Assembly (NCBI GenBank): GCA_008373205.1 | Contig: RQOS01000035.1 | Span: forward strand, 1-49,454 | Length of the DNA stretch: 49,454 nucleotides | Reading direction: 5' to 3' | Origin: SAR202 cluster bacterium | GTDB taxonomy: Bacteria; Chloroflexota; Dehalococcoidia; Lucifugimonadales; Lucifugimonadaceae | Part shown: in pieces, positions 12,327 through 49,454 of the stretch | How positions within the stretch are numbered: position 1 is the first letter of the stretch | Layout: every line of letters starts with the position of its first letter | Notes under the pieces: generated by a model | Database searches by the model: none | Told to the model about the DNA's origin: nothing | The model's input: the letters and a program-made list of their open reading frames with translations, nothing else | Position numbers and translations under genes: made by a program

Positions 12327-12962
12327 ATGGGCAACACAAGTTTAGAAAATTCAATAATTGAGTGGATAACTAAAGTTTTAGAGACAATAGATTATTTTGG
12401 TGTGTTTATATTAATGATTCTAGACCCCACTGCCCTGCCGATACCTGCAGAAATCATTCTTCCTCTGTCTGGATGGATTCTTGTTGATAATTTTGGAGAA
12501 GTATTATTTCTTTCTCTAATAGCAACAGTAGGATCTACGATTGGATGTATCATTGAATTTTATTTAGCTAGAGCTCTTGGAAGAAAATTCATAATAAAAT
12601 ATGGAAAATATATATTCATTACTGAAGAAGATTTACAAAAACAAGAAAGGGTTTTAAGACAAAACCAATTTTATTTCATATTCTTTACACGCTTAATTCC
12701 ATTAATTCCTAAATCTATAACTTCAATTATTGCCGGAATATATAATCTTAATTTATATAAATTTACAATTTTTACGTTCATCGCAACATTTCCAACCCTT
12801 TTTACTTATGTATATATTGGTAATAATCTAGGAGAGAACTATTCAGAGATAAGAAATTATGTGGGTGGTTATGGGATACCTATACTTATATTCTTATTAT
12901 TATGTATGTTGTTTTATTTTCTATTCAAATTTTATAAAATGAAACAAAGTAAAAGATTATGA
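12327..12962 (+). CDS. DedA family membrane protein
   Basis: About 211 residues. DedA (SNARE-associated/VTT domain) proteins are inner-membrane phospholipid transporters or scramblases. Landmarks are DPTALPIPAEIILPLSGWI, TVGSTIGCIIEFYLARALGR (the GxxxGxxxxYxxGRxxG region) and FFTRLIPLIPKSITSIIAGIYNLNLYKF (the family's FxxRFxPxxRxxxxxxAG motif, with Lys in place of the second Arg). The ATG at 12327 is preferred over a TTG at 12261 by alignment with the family; ribosome sites are poor for both. Its end overlaps the formate dehydrogenase start by four bases (ATGA), so the two are translationally coupled. Confidence 0.82.
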   Translation: MGNTSLENSIIEWITKVLETIDYFGVFILMILDPTALPIPAEIILPLSGWILVDNFGEVLFLSLIATVGSTIGCIIEFYLARALGRKFIIKYGKYIFITEEDLQKQERVLRQNQFYFIFFTRLIPLIPKSITSIIAGIYNLNLYKFTIFTFIATFPTLFTYVYIGNNLGENYSEIRNYVGGYGIPILIFLLLCMLFYFLFKFYKMKQSKRL

Positions 12963-15679
12963 TTGAAACTAAGTTTATAACCCTAAAGGTAAACGATGAA
13001 TTTATTACCGTAAGCGACGGTGATAGAATTTTGGCAGCAATTAATAAATCTAATAAATCTGTACCTACCCTCTGCTACGACGAAAGAATAGGACCTCAAG
13101 GAACATGTCGAATGTGTCTAGTAGAAATAAAAAAAGGAGAAAAATTAGAATATGTCGCGTCGTGTACTTATCTTGCTGAAGAAGGGTTAGAAGTATTTAC
13201 TCATTCTGATTCATTGATTGAATATAGAAAAACAATGTTAGAGCTTTCTTTATCAGAAATACGTTGGGATGAAGATAGTATGAAGCAAACAGAACTTACA
13301 AATAATGAATTTGCTGAAGCAGTTAAAGAATATAAACCTACAGATTTCTTCCCCAAATTACTTAAAAGAGAAGTTGCTAACGACCCTAATCCATTTATCC
13401 AGAGAGATTATGAAAAATGTATAGCATGTTATAGATGTACTAATATTTGTAATGATTGGGAACAAGCATCAGCAATTACTGTAGATGGAAGAGGACAAGA
13501 ATCAAAGATATTCTCTTTTTTTGATAATAAATTAATGGAATCTAATTGTACTTTTTGTGGCCAATGTATCAACACATGTCCTACTGGAGCATTATCTAAT
13601 AAAAAAATAGAAAAGAGTGTAAGCAAACCAGAAACTAAAACTAAAACTATTTGCCCATATTGTGGAGTCGGTTGTGGTATTGAGTTAATAAGTAATGGAG
13701 AAAAAATCCTTGGATCAACTCCTGACTTTGATGCTCCTAGTCTGGGTTCACTATGTGTAAAAGGACAGTTTGCATCATGGGATTTTGTTAACTCTAAGGA
13801 AAGGCTTACTGATCCTCTTTTAAAAAATAATAAAGGCGAGTTTGAAAAAGTTTCATGGGAAAAAGCTTATGAAGTTTTTAGTCAAAAACTAAATAATTCG
13901 ATAGATAATCATGGTCCAGACTCAACCGTATGGTGGGCTTCAGCTAGAGTTGTAACGGAAGCAAATTATTTATTACAAAAATTTGCTAGAACAGTTGTAG
14001 GTACTAATAATATTGATAATTGCTCACGTACCTGACACGCTCCTACGGTCGCTGGGATGGCGGTCATGGTTGGCAGAGGTGCTATGACTAATTCGATTGA
14101 AGAATTAGCAGGATCTAAACTATTATTAGTTACAGGTTCTAATACTACTGAAACTCATCCAGTTATTTCTTTAAGAATGAAAAAGGCCGTTAAGAATGGG
14201 GCTAAACTTATAGTTGTTGACCCAAGAAAAATTGAACTTACAAAATGGGCTGACAAATATATACAGATCAGAATAGGTACTGATATTCCATTCTATAATG
14301 CTGTTGCAAATTATATTATTCAAAATGATTTATACGACAAAGACTATGTTGCAACTAGAACTAGAAATTTTGAAGAAATTAAAGATCATCTGACAATGTA
14401 TACTCCCGAGTATTCTGCAAAGATTTGTGGAATAGATCCTGAAGACATAATTTATACAGCCAAAGAATATGCTAAAGCTTCTCCAAAATCAGCAATCTGT
14501 TACACAGTTGGTATAACTGAACATTCTTGTGGATCATATAATGTTCAAAGTTTAGCTAATTTAGCGATGATTTGTGGAAATTTTGGAAGAGAAAATGCAG
14601 GAGTAAATCCTCTAAGAGGACAAAATAATGTGCAGGGAGTAAGTGACTCCGGTTCCCTTCCAACAGATTTCCCCGGATATCAAAAAGTTGAAGCACCAGG
14701 GATGGTAGAAAAATTTGAAAAAATTTGGGATGCTGAATTACCTAGAAAAAGAGGTATGACTAAAATTACAGCTATGGATAAAATGAATTCAGGAGATGTA
14801 AAATTTCTTTTTGTAATGGGGGAAAATACTATTGTTTCTGATCCTAATGCAAACCATGCAATTCATGCTTTAGAAAATTTAGATTTTTTCGTCGTTCAAG
14901 ATATTTTTATGACACAAACAGCTAAAATGGCTGATCTTGTGCTACCAGCATCATCATTTGCTGAAGCAAATGGCACATTTGTAAATACTGAAAGAAGAGT
15001 ACAGAGAGTTAGGCCTGCAGTGAGCACTCCTGGAAATGCAAAGACAGATGTTGATATTATATTAGGTTTCTATGAAGCAATGGGAAAGAAACATAAAATA
15101 ACTGAACCTTCAGAAATATGGAAAGAAATGGCCAGTACTAGTCCCCTATTCAGTGGAATAAACTATGACAGAATAGAGGCTTTAGGTGGAATACAATGGC
15201 CTTGCCCTGATGAAGATCATCCAGGAACTAGATATTTACATAAAAATCAGATGGAATCAGGAGAAACTGGTATTTTTAGTCCAGTTGACCATATTGAACC
15301 AGCGGAACCAACAAATGAAGAATTTCCTTTTGTTTTATCTACAGGGCGAAGAAGATCAACTTATCATACTGGAACTCAAACTGGCAAAGCAAAGGGATTT
15401 GATGAAATTATTTCTGAAGAGTTAGTTGAAATAAATCCATTCGATGCTAAAAATCTTTCTATTAAAGAAAAGGATATTATAAAAGTTGAATCTAGAAGAG
15501 GTTCAGTAACTGCCAAGGCTAAGATTACAGATAAATCACCAGAAGGTGCCATTTTTATGAGCTTTGCTTTTCCAGACAAAACCAGAACTAACGATTTAAC
15601 TTCAGATGCAGTAGATTTTATTACTGAAACTCCAGAGTATAAAGCATGTGCCGTCAAAATAAGCATTGCCAATAAGTAA
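12959..15679 (+). CDS. fdhA: Selenocysteine-containing formate dehydrogenase, alpha subunit
   Basis: Read as one 906-residue protein with the TGA at 14033-14035 as selenocysteine 359. The frame stays open on both sides and the flanks match FdhF: NNIDNCSRT-Sec-HAPTVAG against NNVDCCARV-Sec-HGPSVAG. Domains in order are an N-terminal [2Fe-2S] (C39, C50, C53, C69), two [4Fe-4S] (C154/157/160/164 and C197/200/203/207), the MopB [4Fe-4S] (ICPYCGVGCG with C232/235/239, then C266), and the Mo-bisPGD catalytic domain ending with the dinucleotide-binding C-terminal domain. It oxidises formate to CO2; the N-terminal iron-sulfur domain suggests an NAD-linked or ferredoxin-linked cytoplasmic enzyme. No FdhD, NuoE/NuoF-type subunit or Sec machinery is in the window. 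A conventional gene caller would split it at 14035. Confidence 0.92.
14033..14062 (+). promoter_or_regulatory. Sec codon and bacterial SECIS-like hairpin
   Basis: Directly after the UGA, bases 14038-14062 fold by hand as C38-G62, G39-C61, C40-G60, U41-G59, a two-base bulge (A57, U58), C42-G56, C43-G55, U44-G54, A45-U53, a bulged C52, C46-G51, with apical loop GGUC (47-50; last two digits of the coordinate given). E. coli fdhF also presents GGUC in its SelB-binding loop. Bases 14036-14065 are about 70% GC, a marked island here. Confidence 0.8.
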
Positions 15680-43074: not shown

Positions 43075-44301
43075 TTGAATAAGGATAATTTTTCAATTAA
43101 ATCTATTATTTGGAGTGTGTATGCTCCAAGTTTTCTTCTTTCTATGGGACAAGGATTATTAATTCCTGTTTTACCAATATTTGCGAGAGATACTTTTGGG
43201 TCGGGAGATTTATTAGTTGGATTCTTAATAGCTGCCAGACACTTCGGGACTATGGGATTCGATGTTCCTGCGGGAATTCTTGTAGGAAGATTTGGGCTTA
43301 ATAGAACAATGATAGCTGGTGTAATATTGTTCGGTGTAAGTGCAATATTTGCTGGTTTAAGTGGTAATTTTTCTTTACTTCTTTTTTCAAGATTATTAGC
43401 TGGAGCAAGTTTCGCTCTTTGGTCTATTTCGAGACATGCATATATTGCTTCTGTAATACCTAATGAAAAAAGAGGGAAAGCATTATCTTTATTTGGTGGA
43501 TTGGGAAGAATTGCCACTATAATTGGACCATTAATTGGTGGAATTTTAGCTCAATTTGTATCTATTAGAGCTCCTTTCTTTTTTCAAGCATTCATTGCAT
43601 TTTTAACATTAATTCTAATAACAGCTACGTCTAGAAACTTTGAGATTAATAATAAAAAATCTTCTGATGGTTACATGCATGATCTTAGGAGTACATTTAG
43701 TGATCATAAAAATGCTTACTTAACTGCGGGAATGGCTGCTGTAGCTTTGCAATTTTTGAGAGCAAGTAGAGAAATTGTTATACCTTTATGGGGAGATAAT
43801 ATGGGATTACGTAAAGATGAAATTGGATATATTACAACATTAAGCTTTGCTGTAGACTCACTTATGTTTCCTATCGCAGGTTTTATAATGGATAAGTTCG
43901 GTAGAAGATATACAGGAATACCTGCTTTTATAATATTAGGCTTCTCATTAGTATTAATTGGAACCGTTGATAGTCCAATATTATTTCTAACGTCATACTC
44001 CACTTTGGTTTTATCCGCTATTTTATCCGGGGTTGGGAATGGTATATCAAGTGGATTAGTTCTTACTATAGGATCTGACTTGTCTCCTCCAGATAATAGA
44101 GGCGGATTCTTAGGTATATGGAGATTGATATCAGATGGTGGTGGAGCTGCTGGTCCTACTGTAATGGGAATAATAGCAAATTCTTTTTCTTTAGCTACGG
44201 CTAGTTTCTCAAGTGGAATAATCGCTATAACAGGTATAATTTTTATGAGATTTTTTGTAAAAGAAACTTTAGAAAAAGATGAAACTAAATCAAAGCATTA
44301 A
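43075..44301 (+). CDS. MFS transporter
   Basis: A 408-residue 12-span carrier with GFDVPAGILVGRFGLNRT at the loop between spans 2 and 3 and the RLLAGASFALW segment. The start is probably TTG at 43075, five bases after the VOC stop, with no clear ribosome site, so translation may be coupled. Last gene of the operon. Its final 17 bases overlap the convergent DUF4392 gene. Drug-efflux-like subfamily; substrate unknown. Confidence 0.85.
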   Translation: MNKDNFSIKSIIWSVYAPSFLLSMGQGLLIPVLPIFARDTFGSGDLLVGFLIAARHFGTMGFDVPAGILVGRFGLNRTMIAGVILFGVSAIFAGLSGNFSLLLFSRLLAGASFALWSISRHAYIASVIPNEKRGKALSLFGGLGRIATIIGPLIGGILAQFVSIRAPFFFQAFIAFLTLILITATSRNFEINNKKSSDGYMHDLRSTFSDHKNAYLTAGMAAVALQFLRASREIVIPLWGDNMGLRKDEIGYITTLSFAVDSLMFPIAGFIMDKFGRRYTGIPAFIILGFSLVLIGTVDSPILFLTSYSTLVLSAILSGVGNGISSGLVLTIGSDLSPPDNRGGFLGIWRLISDGGGAAGPTVMGIIANSFSLATASFSSGIIAITGIIFMRFFVKETLEKDETKSKH

Positions 44302-45124
44302 GTTTTTCTAAACAAACTTTATCTTCATCAAGAGATCTCCCATCAACCCATGGTTTAGATTCTCCACTCATACCTTCAACTGCTCCTAGATTGTAAGCTT
44401 TTTCGATTAGTTTTATCCCATCTTTCACAGTGGGTAATAAATTCTTTTTTTCATGCAGTGATATGCCAGCAATTAATCCATAGGCGCCCCAGTTTGAAGT
44501 ACTAGATATAATACTTTCAGATGTTGTAATAATTGAAGGATATTCGATTATATTTCCTATATTTTCTATTTCATTAATATAGTTACCACTACCAATTTCA
44601 TTTCCTCCATCTAAAATACCTATAGTTTTTGGATGTTGTTCAAATAAATAGTCAACTTTAGCATTAAATTTTGAGAAATCTATTCCTCTAAAATTTCTAT
44701 ATTTGCCATCTTTAGATAAACCTGCTCTTTCAATGGAAATTATTGATTTAGGATCATAATTTTTTATCAGCTCATTTGCAAAAGCATTTGAATCAAAATG
44801 AGAAGATATTGGAAATTCTATTACTTTTTTTTCATCCGACATTCCTGAGATTATTTTATATGAAAATTTATCAGTTATATAAAAAACTTCAAAACCTAGT
44901 TTTTCTAAGGTATTTCCAAGAGCTATTGCACCTGGGGGACCATCTGTCTCAGAAGATTTTGCACTTAAAATATAGAATCCTGTAGTTATAAAAACTACTC
45001 CCCTTTTTTCCATAATAAGATCTGTTGATCTTTCAATATATCCTTTTTCTATATTTTCATAAAGAGTTGCCATTCCTCTAGTATCATCTTGTAAAATAAT
45101 TTTTTCAATTTCAGAATAACTCAT
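44285..45124 (-). CDS. DUF4392 protein, D-glutamate cyclase C-terminal-domain homologue
   Basis: A 279-residue protein matching the C-terminal half of mammalian D-glutamate cyclase (DGLUCY, DUF4392). It has RGVVFITTGFYIL, SSETDGPPGAIALGNTLEKLGFEVFYITDK, PKSIISIERAGLSKDGKYRNFRG and GILDGGNEIGSGNY (acidic, metal-like). The family converts free D-glutamate to 5-oxo-D-proline in mitochondria; the bacterial activity is inferred. It starts right after the stop of the DUF1445 gene (TAAATG), so the two are coupled. In animals these two domains are fused in one polypeptide. Confidence 0.82.
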   Translation of the reverse strand: MSYSEIEKIILQDDTRGMATLYENIEKGYIERSTDLIMEKRGVVFITTGFYILSAKSSETDGPPGAIALGNTLEKLGFEVFYITDKFSYKIISGMSDEKKVIEFPISSHFDSNAFANELIKNYDPKSIISIERAGLSKDGKYRNFRGIDFSKFNAKVDYLFEQHPKTIGILDGGNEIGSGNYINEIENIGNIIEYPSIITTSESIISSTSNWGAYGLIAGISLHEKKNLLPTVKDGIKLIEKAYNLGAVEGMSGESKPWVDGRSLDEDKVCLEKLNALI

Positions 45125-45904
45125 TTAAATTACTGCCATATCCTCATCTTTCAAGTCAGTTAAAAACATTTTCCCAGGAGAATGAGTTATCATAATTTCT
45201 AATTTTGCTTCTTGTATAGCTATTTGAGGAGTTACTCCACATGCCCAGTAAACAGGAATAAGTTCCTCATTTTCAGGTATCCATGGATCGCCAAAATCTG
45301 GTTTATAAGGATCTTCTATTCCTATTTCAGATGAATTTCCAACTTGAATAGGAGTGCCATGTTGATTTGGGAATCTACTAGTTATCTGTATAGATCTAAC
45401 AAGCTTTTCTCTAGGAATCCATCTTTGAGTAACAACCATTTTACCTGAAAACTTCCCAGATTTTTCAGTATCTATAGATGTTATAAACATAGGTACATTT
45501 TTACCTTGTTTGAAATAAGGAAGATCCAAACCATTTTTCATTAATTCATTTTCAAAAGTGAACGAACAGCCCAGTAAAAATGTTACAAAATCATCTCTCC
45601 AAAACTCTGTAATATCTGTTGAATTAGAAGAGAATTTACCATCTTTAAAAATTTTATATTCTGGTATATCTTTTCTTATATCGGATTTATAGGCAAAGTT
45701 AGATTCATAATCACCAGGATCAAAAACTTCTATCAGTGGACAAGGCTTAGGATTCCTTTGACAATAGAGCATAAAATCAAATGCATCCTTTTTAGGAATT
45801 ATTACTACATTTGTTTGAACATAACCTTGAGCTAGACCTGATGTTGTAAAATTTTCTCCATTTCTAGCTTTATTTCTAACTTCAATTGAAGATAATTTAT
45901 TCAT
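45125..45904 (-). CDS. DUF1445 protein, D-glutamate cyclase N-terminal-domain / putative hydro-lyase (YcsI family)
   Basis: A 259-residue protein of the DUF1445/YcsI group. Conserved blocks are TTSGLAQGYVQTNVVIIPK, FMLYCQRNPKPCPLIEV, DIRKDIPEYKIFKDG, FVTFLLGCSFTFENELMKNG, GKMVVTQRWI and VYWACGVTPQIAIQ. The start at 45904 is set by GGAGA five bases upstream. Paired with DUF4392 it reconstructs the two-domain animal enzyme as split genes. Alone, this family is annotated only as a putative hydro-lyase. Confidence 0.85.
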   Translation of the reverse strand: MNKLSSIEVRNKARNGENFTTSGLAQGYVQTNVVIIPKKDAFDFMLYCQRNPKPCPLIEVFDPGDYESNFAYKSDIRKDIPEYKIFKDGKFSSNSTDITEFWRDDFVTFLLGCSFTFENELMKNGLDLPYFKQGKNVPMFITSIDTEKSGKFSGKMVVTQRWIPREKLVRSIQITSRFPNQHGTPIQVGNSSEIGIEDPYKPDFGDPWIPENEELIPVYWACGVTPQIAIQEAKLEIMITHSPGKMFLTDLKDEDMAVI

Positions 45905-45905
45905 A

Positions 45906-47480
45906 TTAGTCTCCATTTTTTATGTGATCAGAAATCTTTTCTCCAATCATAATCGCTGTAGCATTAGTGTTTGCCCTAACGCAATCTGGCATAATAGAGC
46001 AATCTGCTATTCTCAATCCTTCTATTCCTATAACTTTGCCGTGTTTATCTACAACGGAAAAGTCATCATCAGTATTACCCATTTTACAAGTTCCAGAAAT
46101 ATGATGCATCGTATGAACTTTAGATGATATCCATTTTTTTAGTAATTTATCATCTTCAAGGGCCTCAGGTAATGGAGCTATTAGATCTTTTCTGAAAGAA
46201 TCAAAGTTACTATTTCTAGCGATTTCAAAGTTAAATTTTACCCCTTCAATCATTCTTTGAAAATCATTCTCATTACTTAAGTAATTATAATTTAAGTCTG
46301 GATGATTTCGTGGATCTAATTTATTTAATGATAATTTTCCAGAACTTTTTGCTAAAAATATTCCTGTGGTTATTCCTACTCGAGTTTTACCAAAATCAGA
46401 CTTTTCAAAATGTAAATTATCTGGACTTATACCTTCAGGTTGGAATCTCATAACAGATATCATATCTAGCCTATCTTTAGAATTTGAAGAAGTATATCTT
46501 AGTCCTACTTTCTGAGCACCTACGTCAGTAAGATTATCATTCAAAGAATGATCTCCGTTCCATCTCAATTCAACAGCTGGATGGTCTCTTAGATTTTGAC
46601 CGACTCCTTTTAATTCATGAACATGTTCAATATTAGATTCGTCTAATTCATCCTTTTTACCAACTCCTGAAAGTAAAAGTAATTTAGGGCTTTCAACAGC
46701 TCCTGCTGAAACAATTATCTCGTTGCCTTCATATATTTCATCATTCTCAAGTATTAATCCGATTTGTTTCCCATTTTCTATAAGAATTTTTTTACAAATT
46801 GAATTTGATAAAACATCTAAGTTTTCTCTTACCATGGCTGGTAAAACATAACATATACCAGTGCTCCATCTTATACCATTAGGGTTGTTTAATGGCATTG
46901 GACCAACTCCTTCAGAGTAAGGTAGATTATGATCTTCTGTAGTCTTAAATCCCATTTCCTGAACTGTATTATAAAATGTCATTTGATCTATTAATAAAGA
47001 ATCAAGGCTATGTCTCTTAACAGGAACAGGTCCATCGTTTCCATGATATTCATTAGTAAAATCTAGATCATTCTCTTGTTTTATATAATATTTTAGACAT
47101 TCCTCAAAAGACCAATCCTCTAAGCCTTTACTACTCCAATTTTCAAAGTCTTCAGGTATGGCTCTTAAAAAAACTTGGCCATTTATAGAACTAGTACCAC
47201 CTGCAACTCTTCCACGAGGTACTCCCATATTTTTGAAATCAGGATTAGATATAGCCTTGTATTGCCAGTCAAATTCTGTTCCAACAGCTAAATTTCCTGT
47301 CCAATCAGCACCAGTAGCCATACCTTTTAGTAGTACATCTGGTATTTCCTCCATATTTTCAAAAGTATTTCCAGCTTCAATCAATAATACTTTAGTACTT
47401 GGATTTTCAGACAATCTTGAAGCTATGACTGCTCCAGATGAACCAGCACCAATAATTATATAATCATAAGTTTTTTTCAA
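45906..47480 (-). CDS. GMC family FAD-dependent oxidoreductase
   Basis: A 524-residue glucose-methanol-choline oxidoreductase. FAD fold YIIIGAGSSGAVIASRLSE at the start, GRVAGGTSSINGQVFLRA (GMC signature 1), IIVSAGAVESPKLLLLSGVG (signature 2) and HHISGTCKMG with the catalytic His, ending near DCSIMPDCVRANTNATAIMIGEK. Members oxidise alcohols or sugars such as choline; substrate unknown. TTG start at 47480 with AGAGGT upstream. Second gene of an operon (SDR, GMC, DUF1445, DUF4392). Confidence 0.92.
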   Translation of the reverse strand: MKKTYDYIIIGAGSSGAVIASRLSENPSTKVLLIEAGNTFENMEEIPDVLLKGMATGADWTGNLAVGTEFDWQYKAISNPDFKNMGVPRGRVAGGTSSINGQVFLRAIPEDFENWSSKGLEDWSFEECLKYYIKQENDLDFTNEYHGNDGPVPVKRHSLDSLLIDQMTFYNTVQEMGFKTTEDHNLPYSEGVGPMPLNNPNGIRWSTGICYVLPAMVRENLDVLSNSICKKILIENGKQIGLILENDEIYEGNEIIVSAGAVESPKLLLLSGVGKKDELDESNIEHVHELKGVGQNLRDHPAVELRWNGDHSLNDNLTDVGAQKVGLRYTSSNSKDRLDMISVMRFQPEGISPDNLHFEKSDFGKTRVGITTGIFLAKSSGKLSLNKLDPRNHPDLNYNYLSNENDFQRMIEGVKFNFEIARNSNFDSFRKDLIAPLPEALEDDKLLKKWISSKVHTMHHISGTCKMGNTDDDFSVVDKHGKVIGIEGLRIADCSIMPDCVRANTNATAIMIGEKISDHIKNGD

Positions 47481-47492
47481 TAAATACCTCTT

Positions 47493-48320
47493 TTAATTCA
47501 ATGATGCTCCACCATTTACATTCAAAGCTTGACCAGTAATCTCTGAAGAATCTTCAGAAGCAAAAAATGCTACTGTTTTTCCTATATCTTCTGCAGTTTG
47601 CCCTCTTCCTAAAGGAGTACGAGCTTTTACTGCTAATTCATCAAATACTTCTTTAGGTGTTTTATTTTTTAAATTTGGATTTTGTTCAATATGATTTATT
47701 GCAATAGCTTCCCAAATTGGAGTCCAAATAACTCCAGGACATACAGCATTTACATTTATGTTGAAACTTCCTAATTCAATTGCTAATAAATGTGTGTATT
47801 GTATAGCAGCGGCTTTAGATACGAGATATGGAGTTTGGACATTTCCTCTATGCATATCTCCTAATCCTCTAGGTTTCCTTCCACCATGAGAAGCAATATT
47901 AATAATTTTCCCGTATTCTTTCATTTTCATATGATCTACAATCGCATCAGCACTATTTACCATTCCAATAACGTTAACATCAAAAGTATTATCCCAATCG
48001 TCTTTAGAATAATTTTTTCTTTCTGAAAAACCTTTGGCACCTATAACACCTGCATTAGCAACTAAAATATCAATAGTTCCATGCTTATCAAGAATTTTAT
48101 CTCTAAAATTTTCTAAATCTTCAGGTTTTGTTACATCCACCGAATCATGTAGAATATCACTTGATAAAGATTCAGCTGTTTTTTCAGCAGAGTCACCAAA
48201 TAAATCACATAGAGCTAAAGTTGCTCCCCTTTCAAATAGTACTCTTGCAATTCCAGCACCAATTCCACTTCCAGCACCAGTAATCATTGCTATTTTCCCT
48301 GATAGATCTTTGCCACTCAT
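47493..48320 (-). CDS. SDR family oxidoreductase
   Basis: A 275-residue classical SDR. TGAGSGIGAGIA (14-25), NAGV, IINIASHGG (Ser), YLVSK (Tyr and Lys) and SSEITGQALNVNGG are all present, so the active site is intact. GAGGT precedes the ATG. First gene of the four-gene minus-strand operon, 12 bases before the GMC gene. The pair SDR plus GMC suggests two-step oxidation of an alcohol. Confidence 0.9.
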   Translation of the reverse strand: MSGKDLSGKIAMITGAGSGIGAGIARVLFERGATLALCDLFGDSAEKTAESLSSDILHDSVDVTKPEDLENFRDKILDKHGTIDILVANAGVIGAKGFSERKNYSKDDWDNTFDVNVIGMVNSADAIVDHMKMKEYGKIINIASHGGRKPRGLGDMHRGNVQTPYLVSKAAAIQYTHLLAIELGSFNINVNAVCPGVIWTPIWEAIAINHIEQNPNLKNKTPKEVFDELAVKARTPLGRGQTAEDIGKTVAFFASEDSSEITGQALNVNGGASLN

Positions 48321-48487: not shown

Positions 48488-49454
48488 TTGAGTAAAAATA
48501 ATTATCGATTAGAAGAACTAGAAAAACTAGTTTCTTTAGCTAAAAGAAGAGGTATTATATTTCCTTCAAGCGAAATTTATGGTGGACTATCCTCAGTATG
48601 GGATTATGGACCTATTGGCGTAGAGATAAAAAGAAATGTAAAAAATCTATGGTGGAAATCTTTTGTTAGTGAAAGAGATGATATTTTTGGAATAGATGCT
48701 TCAATTTTAATGCATCCTGATGTTTGGAAGGCTTCTGGTCATTTAGAATCATTTTCAGATCCTTTAGTTGAATGTTCTCTTACAGGTAAAAGATATAGAG
48801 AAGATCATATATTTATATTAGAAATAGAAACAAAAAAGGAAAATAAGATTATAGCTATTGAAGCATCAGATAAAAATGAAGCTGAAAAACTAGTAAAAGA
48901 AAAAATTATTTCAATTATTCCTTTAATTGAATCTGATAGTAAAGAGAATCCATCTCCTGATGGAGGAACTTTATCTGATCCAAGAAATTTCAATCTTATG
49001 TTCAAGACATTTATAGGCCCAGTTGAAGATTCTTCTTCCACAGTTTATCTTAGACCTGAAACTGCTCAGGCTATGTTTGTAAACTTTCTAAATGTCTTAA
49101 ATTCTTCAAGAAAAAAAATCCCCTTTGGAATTGCTCAACAAGGAAAGTCTTTCAGAAATGAAATTACCCCTGGAAACTTTACATTTAGAACTAGGGAATT
49201 TGAGCAAATGACGATGAAAAATGGCATGACTACTGGATTCAGTTCTCATTAGATTGGTTTAAGAAATATGGAATTAGAGAAGAAAACTTAATGATTAGGA
49301 AACATGAAAGTGAAGAATTGCCACATTATTCTAAAGCTAGTTCAGATATAGATTATTTATTTCCTTGGAGCTGGGGTGAACTAGAAACTATTTCAAATAG
49401 AACAGACTATGATCTCAAAGCTCACTCAGAACTATCAGGTAAAGATTTATCATA
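48488..49454 (+). CDS. glyQS: Glycyl-tRNA synthetase (alpha2 type), frameshifted and cut by the window end
   Basis: Class II synthetase, N-terminal portion. Marks are [38 protein letters not shown], the insert with [34 protein letters not shown] and [29 protein letters not shown]. After FEQM (about 49209) the frame changes: frame one ends at TAG 49250-49252. The -1 frame continues DDEKWHDYW, then [13 protein letters not shown] and [25 protein letters not shown] to the window end, as in other GlyRS. About nine residues (family EIEYFVRPG) plus one base are missing, so about 28 bases were deleted. TTG start with AGGAG six bases upstream. Confidence 0.88.

Follow-up and report, generated by a model that had tools for sequence, protein, structure and literature searches.

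Gene arrangement at the locus

The DNA analysed here (the window) is a stretch of 49,454 nt, contig RQOS01000035.1, from a bacterium of the SAR202 group of the Chloroflexota. It carries a minus-strand run of four genes in the order SDR, GMC, DUF1445, and DUF4392 (window 48320-44285; Table 1), the last two of which belong to the families, PF07286 and PF14336, that are joined in DGLUCY (9030617O03Rik / C14orf159), the vertebrate mitochondrial D-glutamate cyclase. It was originally predicted from the sequence that adjacent DUF1445 and DUF4392 genes, coupled through TAAATG and set in the order of the DGLUCY domains, would share an operon with the two oxidoreductase genes, and the open reading frames (ORFs), the sequence itself, and Pfam/NCBIfam searches bear this out. 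The intergenic spacing is +12 nt between SDR and GMC, -11 nt (an overlap) between GMC and DUF1445, and 0 nt between DUF1445 and DUF4392, where the TAA stop codon of the first gene directly abuts the ATG of the second. In the report on DGLUCY, DUF1445 is called the "former" domain and DUF4392 the "latter" (PMC5339696). The SAR202 pair shares with DGLUCY both families and their order, but consists of two coupled bacterial genes rather than one fused protein, has a predicted activity, and is accompanied by PxpABC in the same genome.

Table 1. Coordinates of the genes and features discussed (window positions unless a locus is given)
Feature	Position	Strand	Basis
DUF4392 / GLUCM-like_C protein, 279 aa	44285..45124	-	PF14336, TON_0340 match, model
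DUF1445 / D-Glu_cyclase protein, 263 aa	45125..45916	-	PF07286, NF003969, structure matches
Stop/start junction TAAATG, DUF1445 into DUF4392	45122..45127	-	read in sequence
GMC oxidoreductase, 524 aa	45906..47480	-	PF00732/PF05199 (both GMC domains)
SDR oxidoreductase, 275 aa, opening the genus-level operon	47493..48320	-	PF13561/PF00106
MFS transporter, convergent with the pair	43075..44301	+	PF07690
Pseudoalteromonas five-gene clusters	L198:2559-7679; L213:1590-6688		

Conservation of the pair

The pair was followed through 100 related genomes (51 genera, 40 families), and gene order was compared first at 41 loci with gene calls and then at the best 80 database loci. At L082, L089, and L090, a simple ORF picker took shadow frames, and these loci were judged by DUF1445 and DUF4392 domain searches instead. 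Each domain is found in 87 of the 100 relatives, and the two are nearly always adjoining; the pair is nearly universal in the window's order. Of the best 80 database loci, 72 have DUF1445 upstream of DUF4392 on one strand, within 300 nt in 69 of them, and no other orientation occurs. The remaining 8 include contig ends, a second copy, and genomes outside the Chloroflexota. All nine genomes of the window's genus have a spacing of 0 or -1 nt, and translational coupling of DUF4392 to DUF1445 is likely. Because order and near-zero spacing recur throughout the genus, and because 69 of the 80 database loci keep the same order at 300 nt or less, the layout is not due to chance. The neighbourhood check proposed with the original prediction finds the pair itself conserved across SAR202.

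The same association is seen across the phylum: DUF1445 is present in 31 of 35 Chloroflexota genomes that have DUF4392 and in 18 of 266 that lack it (n=301; Fisher p=3e-25, relatedness not corrected). A further Chloroflexota family (e.g., G109, G122) has the two genes close-set but in the reversed order. The DUF4392 protein has its closest database match, at 100% identity across the protein, in the Chloroflexi genome TMED70; Dehalococcoidia and SAR202 genomes come next. A cultured member of the window's family, Candidatus Lucifugimonas marina JH1073 (CP046147.1), carries the pair 48 nt apart with no GMC gene adjoining.

The original prediction spoke of a "split" cyclase. That there are two separate genes holds, as the window has two ORFs with a stop codon between them. 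However, no single fused DUF1445-DUF4392 polypeptide occurs among the 41 loci with gene calls, and given this lack of a prokaryotic fusion in the loci compared, the separate genes need not descend from a fused ancestor. Nor is separation itself new, since a study of gut bacteria already gives, in its row for GLUCM_HUMAN, 0 full-length and 6 split homologues (PMC11580864). As in SAR202, both parts there come from near-adjacent genes; the SAR202 pair differs in lineage and habitat, and in being retained order-wide in hosts without peptidoglycan. What is new is this conservation across an order of marine bacteria that lack peptidoglycan, together with the five-gene operon of a relative (described below) and the finding that GMC and SDR lie outside the conserved unit.

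The two proteins

The DUF1445 protein matches the full PF07286 (D-Glu_cyclase) model (E=1.8e-53, 180.7 bits against a cut-off of 25) and clears the cut-off of the NCBIfam "putative hydro-lyase" model NF003969 (352.8 versus 324 bits). Its sequence also matches the solved structures 3db9_A (E=2.7e-72) and 2pif_A (E=2.3e-69), and the fold of its single-chain model, predicted at a pLDDT of 90.7, agrees with these (Z 32.9 to 2pif, 30.8 to 3db9). A search of this fold for a mechanistic lead gave one moderate match beyond those two, 3nek (Z 9.8 over 166 residues), and yielded no lead.

The DUF4392 protein matches the full PF14336 (GLUCM-like_C) model (E=1.3e-62, 212.4 bits against a cut-off of 27.9) and aligns to TON_0340 of Thermococcus onnurineus (4dwz_A, E=2.1e-25). 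The metal ligands of TON_0340 are Glu59, Asp61, Glu115, Asp157, Glu161, and Asp246 (PMC5132392). In the alignment, all six acidic residues are kept in the window protein, as E59, D61, E132, D172, E176, and D261, and they are invariant among 20 SAR202 sequences. The single-chain model (pLDDT 96.9) has the TON_0340 fold (Z 35 to 4fc5); the next matches are Mn-dependent enzymes of the RecJ/NrnA/GdpP type at Z ~10-11, level with some unrelated Rossmann-like folds. Judged from their sequences, the DUF1445 protein is a homologue of the N-terminal domain of DGLUCY, and the DUF4392 protein is a homologue of both its C-terminal domain and the archaeal Mn enzyme TON_0340.

Two genomes (L205 of G118, and G196:C78) carry several copies of DUF4392, and DUF1445 was not found in them; DUF4392 may have roles outside the pair.

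Association with 5-oxoproline metabolism

The three components of the 5-oxoprolinase PxpABC, PxpA, PxpB, and PxpC, are encoded in the window's own genome (G000:C22), away from the pair. PxpA is present in 78 of the 100 relatives, and at each of the 16 SAR202 loci examined the three genes are adjacent, with short unassigned ORFs intervening in one. A more direct connection is found outside the window's order, in the Dehalococcoidia genome G352 (L200), where DUF1445, PxpA, PxpB, PxpC, and DUF4392 are consecutive on one strand. Furthermore, Pseudoalteromonas donghaensis and Pseudoalteromonas sp. CF6-2 carry, on two replicons, the cluster GH3-DUF1445-PxpA-DUF4392-class IV aminotransferase (Table 1). 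Plasmids of Bacillus, Pantoea, Haematobacter, and Lactiplantibacillus have DUF1445 among pxp genes with no neighbouring DUF4392, often together with genes for a biotin carrier or biotin carboxylase and an NRAMP transporter. An Azospirillum copy of DUF1445 lies instead beside gamma-glutamyltransferase and RidA genes. Gene order thus assigns DUF1445, and in two phyla also DUF4392, to glutamate/5-oxoproline metabolism, and PxpABC is a better-supported pathway partner of the pair than GMC and SDR. Outside the window's family, PxpA occurs in 19 of 33 SAR202 genomes with DUF1445 and in 0 of 6 without it (p=0.02, relatedness not corrected). HyuB, a hydantoinase/5-oxoprolinase considered as another enzyme that might open the lactam, is absent from all five genomes of the genus tested.

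The same context is known in Bacillus subtilis, where the DUF1445 protein YcsI belongs to the pxpABC-ycsG operon (PMC10448178). Unlike ycsI, the SAR202 pair lies outside the pxp operon, is joined to DUF4392, and has no NRAMP Mn importer adjoining.

As a separate observation, the Pseudoalteromonas five-gene cluster resembles a route for peptidoglycan-derived D-glutamate and would be a tractable genetic model.

Proposed function and alternatives

According to published work, SAR202 bacteria do not synthesize peptidoglycan (PMC10444878, PMC11994032). The Asp/Glu racemase family (Asp_Glu_race), which includes MurI, is absent from 15 of 18 genomes tested, the window's included, whereas 10 of 14 controls have it. 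For Mur_ligase_M, each genome yields a single weak match of FolC size. A D-glutamate cyclase that serves the host's own wall is thus unlikely. Uptake of D-aspartate rises with depth, and information on the use of D-amino acids by marine microbes is limited (PMC6946804). A term search of three SAR202 papers (PMC10444878, PMC6946804, PMC11994032) returned no mention of D-glutamate, 5-oxoproline, or the cyclase pair. Given a host without peptidoglycan synthesis and mostly without a MurI-family racemase, the simplest reading is that foreign D-glutamate is scavenged, and the original guess of a peptidoglycan-derived substrate fits a host that makes no peptidoglycan of its own.

Taken together, these results have led to a model in which the pair is a two-protein, catabolic D-glutamate cyclase, the prokaryotic counterpart of DGLUCY, to which we assign a probability of about 0.6. 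In this model, SAR202 cells would take up D-glutamate or D-glutamyl compounds shed from the peptidoglycan of other bacteria, the DUF1445/DUF4392 pair would convert exogenous D-glutamate to 5-oxo-D-proline, and PxpABC, encoded elsewhere in the genome, would re-open 5-oxoproline to glutamate. Mouse DGLUCY, which has both domains, makes 5-oxo-D-proline from D-glutamate (PMC5339696); by analogy with this fusion protein, the only one assayed, the SAR202 pair would have the same activity. We infer also that the two proteins associate physically, that the substrate has the source proposed, and that the D-lactam can enter an L-form 5-oxoprolinase.

Several observations weigh against this model. PxpA is missing from 14 of the 33 DUF1445-bearing genomes outside the window's family, DUF1445 and PxpA show no correlation across the phylum (PxpA in 15 of 49 genomes with DUF1445 versus 94 of 252 without), and pxpA is near the pair in only one of the SAR202 loci examined (L153). 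The substrate described for PxpABC is 5-oxo-L-proline, and the stereochemistry would therefore call for a step not yet seen. No dedicated D-glutamate importer was identified, and the literature found gives no measured D-glutamate activity for any stand-alone prokaryotic DUF1445 or DUF4392 protein. In addition, TON_0340, which shares with the window protein the DUF4392 fold and all six ligands, is described from a weak Mn-dependent phosphatase activity (PMC5132392). With the fold also resembling DHH-type phosphodiesterases, the DUF4392 protein may catalyze a reaction other than cyclisation.

These last points bear on a different hypothesis, in which the pair acts not on free D-glutamate but on another small intermediate of the 5-oxoproline pathway; DUF4392 could, for example, be a Mn-dependent phosphatase or hydrolase and DUF1445 a lactam-forming or lactam-isomerising enzyme. 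The phosphatase with its conserved ligands (PMC5132392), the kinship to Mn-dependent DHH phosphodiesterases at Z ~11, and the four plasmid-bearing genera whose DUF1445 is linked to pxp genes without an adjoining DUF4392 would all agree with this. However, the sole two-domain protein assayed is a D-glutamate cyclase whose loss leads to accumulation of D-glutamate in mice (PMC5339696), and this hypothesis is considered unlikely.

It is less likely still that the pair is protective and disposes of D-glutamate as an interfering compound instead of using it as a nutrient. Such a role would fit with the pair being kept even in the 14 genomes where PxpA is missing, and 5-oxoproline could then be excreted, as is reported for humans (PMC5339696). 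Most of the tested genomes, however, lack a MurI-family racemase, leaving no obvious endogenous source of D-glutamate.

A bolder form of the scavenging model, for which the odds seem poor, would take foreign D-glutamate through a lactam on its way to L-glutamate: DUF1445/DUF4392 would cyclise it, handedness would be lost at 5-oxoproline (through DUF4392 or another enzyme), and PxpABC, in this family perhaps linked to a sodium-pumping biotin module (pxpABC-oadG-biotin carrier-oadB), would re-open the ring. If true, this detour would serve in the deep ocean as a dedicated pathway by which the D-glutamate of peptidoglycan is recycled.

In the window's genome, pxpA-pxpB-pxpC is followed on the minus strand by an OAD_gamma-like gene, a biotin carrier gene, and OAD_beta (L182:5273-9799, G000:C22). 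The OAD_beta match, to the beta subunit of Na+-pumping decarboxylases, has E=4e-142, and many members of the family keep the module. In other settings, biotin carboxylase can accompany pxpABC; L182 has the sodium-pump module in its place, hinting at a Na+-coupled, biotin-dependent opening of the lactam. A narrow literature search returned nothing on this.

The two-protein cyclase model gives the near-universal pair of the abundant deep-ocean SAR202, which lack peptidoglycan, a specific and testable gene-to-substrate prediction for cultured strains. Moreover, the separate genes would allow the contribution of each DGLUCY domain to be probed singly.

Neighbouring genes

The original prediction also placed GMC and SDR in the cyclase pathway, as enzymes that act with the pair in one oxidise-and-cyclise route on a D-amino-acid-like or hydroxyacid compound; this is very unlikely, for while the four genes form a compact one-strand run that is kept within the genus, no other genus or family has the SDR-GMC-pair order, the pair lies beside other genes elsewhere, and GMC genes are multi-copy (2-4 per genome within the genus). 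Among the 41 loci, the order SDR-GMC-DUF1445-DUF4392 is confined to 9 genomes of the window's genus (the G008 contig begins inside the GMC gene), and the best 80 database loci add none beyond it. GMC genes near the pair outside the genus are found only on the opposite strand (L097, L143, L145). The 41-locus and then the best-80-locus comparison thus ruled out GMC and SDR as general pathway partners, and an arrangement limited to one genus is no evidence for an oxidising pathway. With different neighbours elsewhere and several GMC copies per genome, GMC and SDR are best seen as a local, genus-level operon addition, their function unrelated or unassigned. In four sister-genus genomes (G010, G013, G015, G019), SDR is still beside the glycyl-tRNA synthetase gene, with other genes between SDR and the pair.

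The convergent MFS transporter gene is kept beside the pair more widely than GMC and SDR, in 18 of the 41 loci, all in the window's family, and its product is a candidate substrate importer. Besides MFS, the family has MR_MLE enolase genes as neighbours of the pair: most sister genera carry a member of this superfamily, which is expanded in SAR202, on the opposite strand directly or nearly directly upstream of DUF1445 (L071, L072, L074-L076, L078-L081). In other SAR202 families, the recurring neighbours include genes for MutS, a NuoG/Fdh-like molybdopterin protein, a zinc alcohol dehydrogenase, OGG, and a CehA/McbA metallohydrolase, which were considered as partners and judged to be unrelated housekeeping or catabolic genes.

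Other observations in the window

The glycyl-tRNA synthetase ORF (window 48488-49252, plus strand) lacks 28 nt that are present in the near-identical genome G001, and the resulting frameshift is probably an assembly error. A formate-dehydrogenase-like ORF (window 12959-15679, plus strand) contains one in-frame TGA at 14033-14035, in the context CSRT-TGA-HAPTVAGM, at the selenocysteine position of Escherichia coli FdhF. The RNA just 3' of this codon can form a hairpin with GGUC in its apical part, as in the E. coli type of selenocysteine insertion sequence, with a z of only -1.0. The product is probably a selenoprotein, as read from the sequence.

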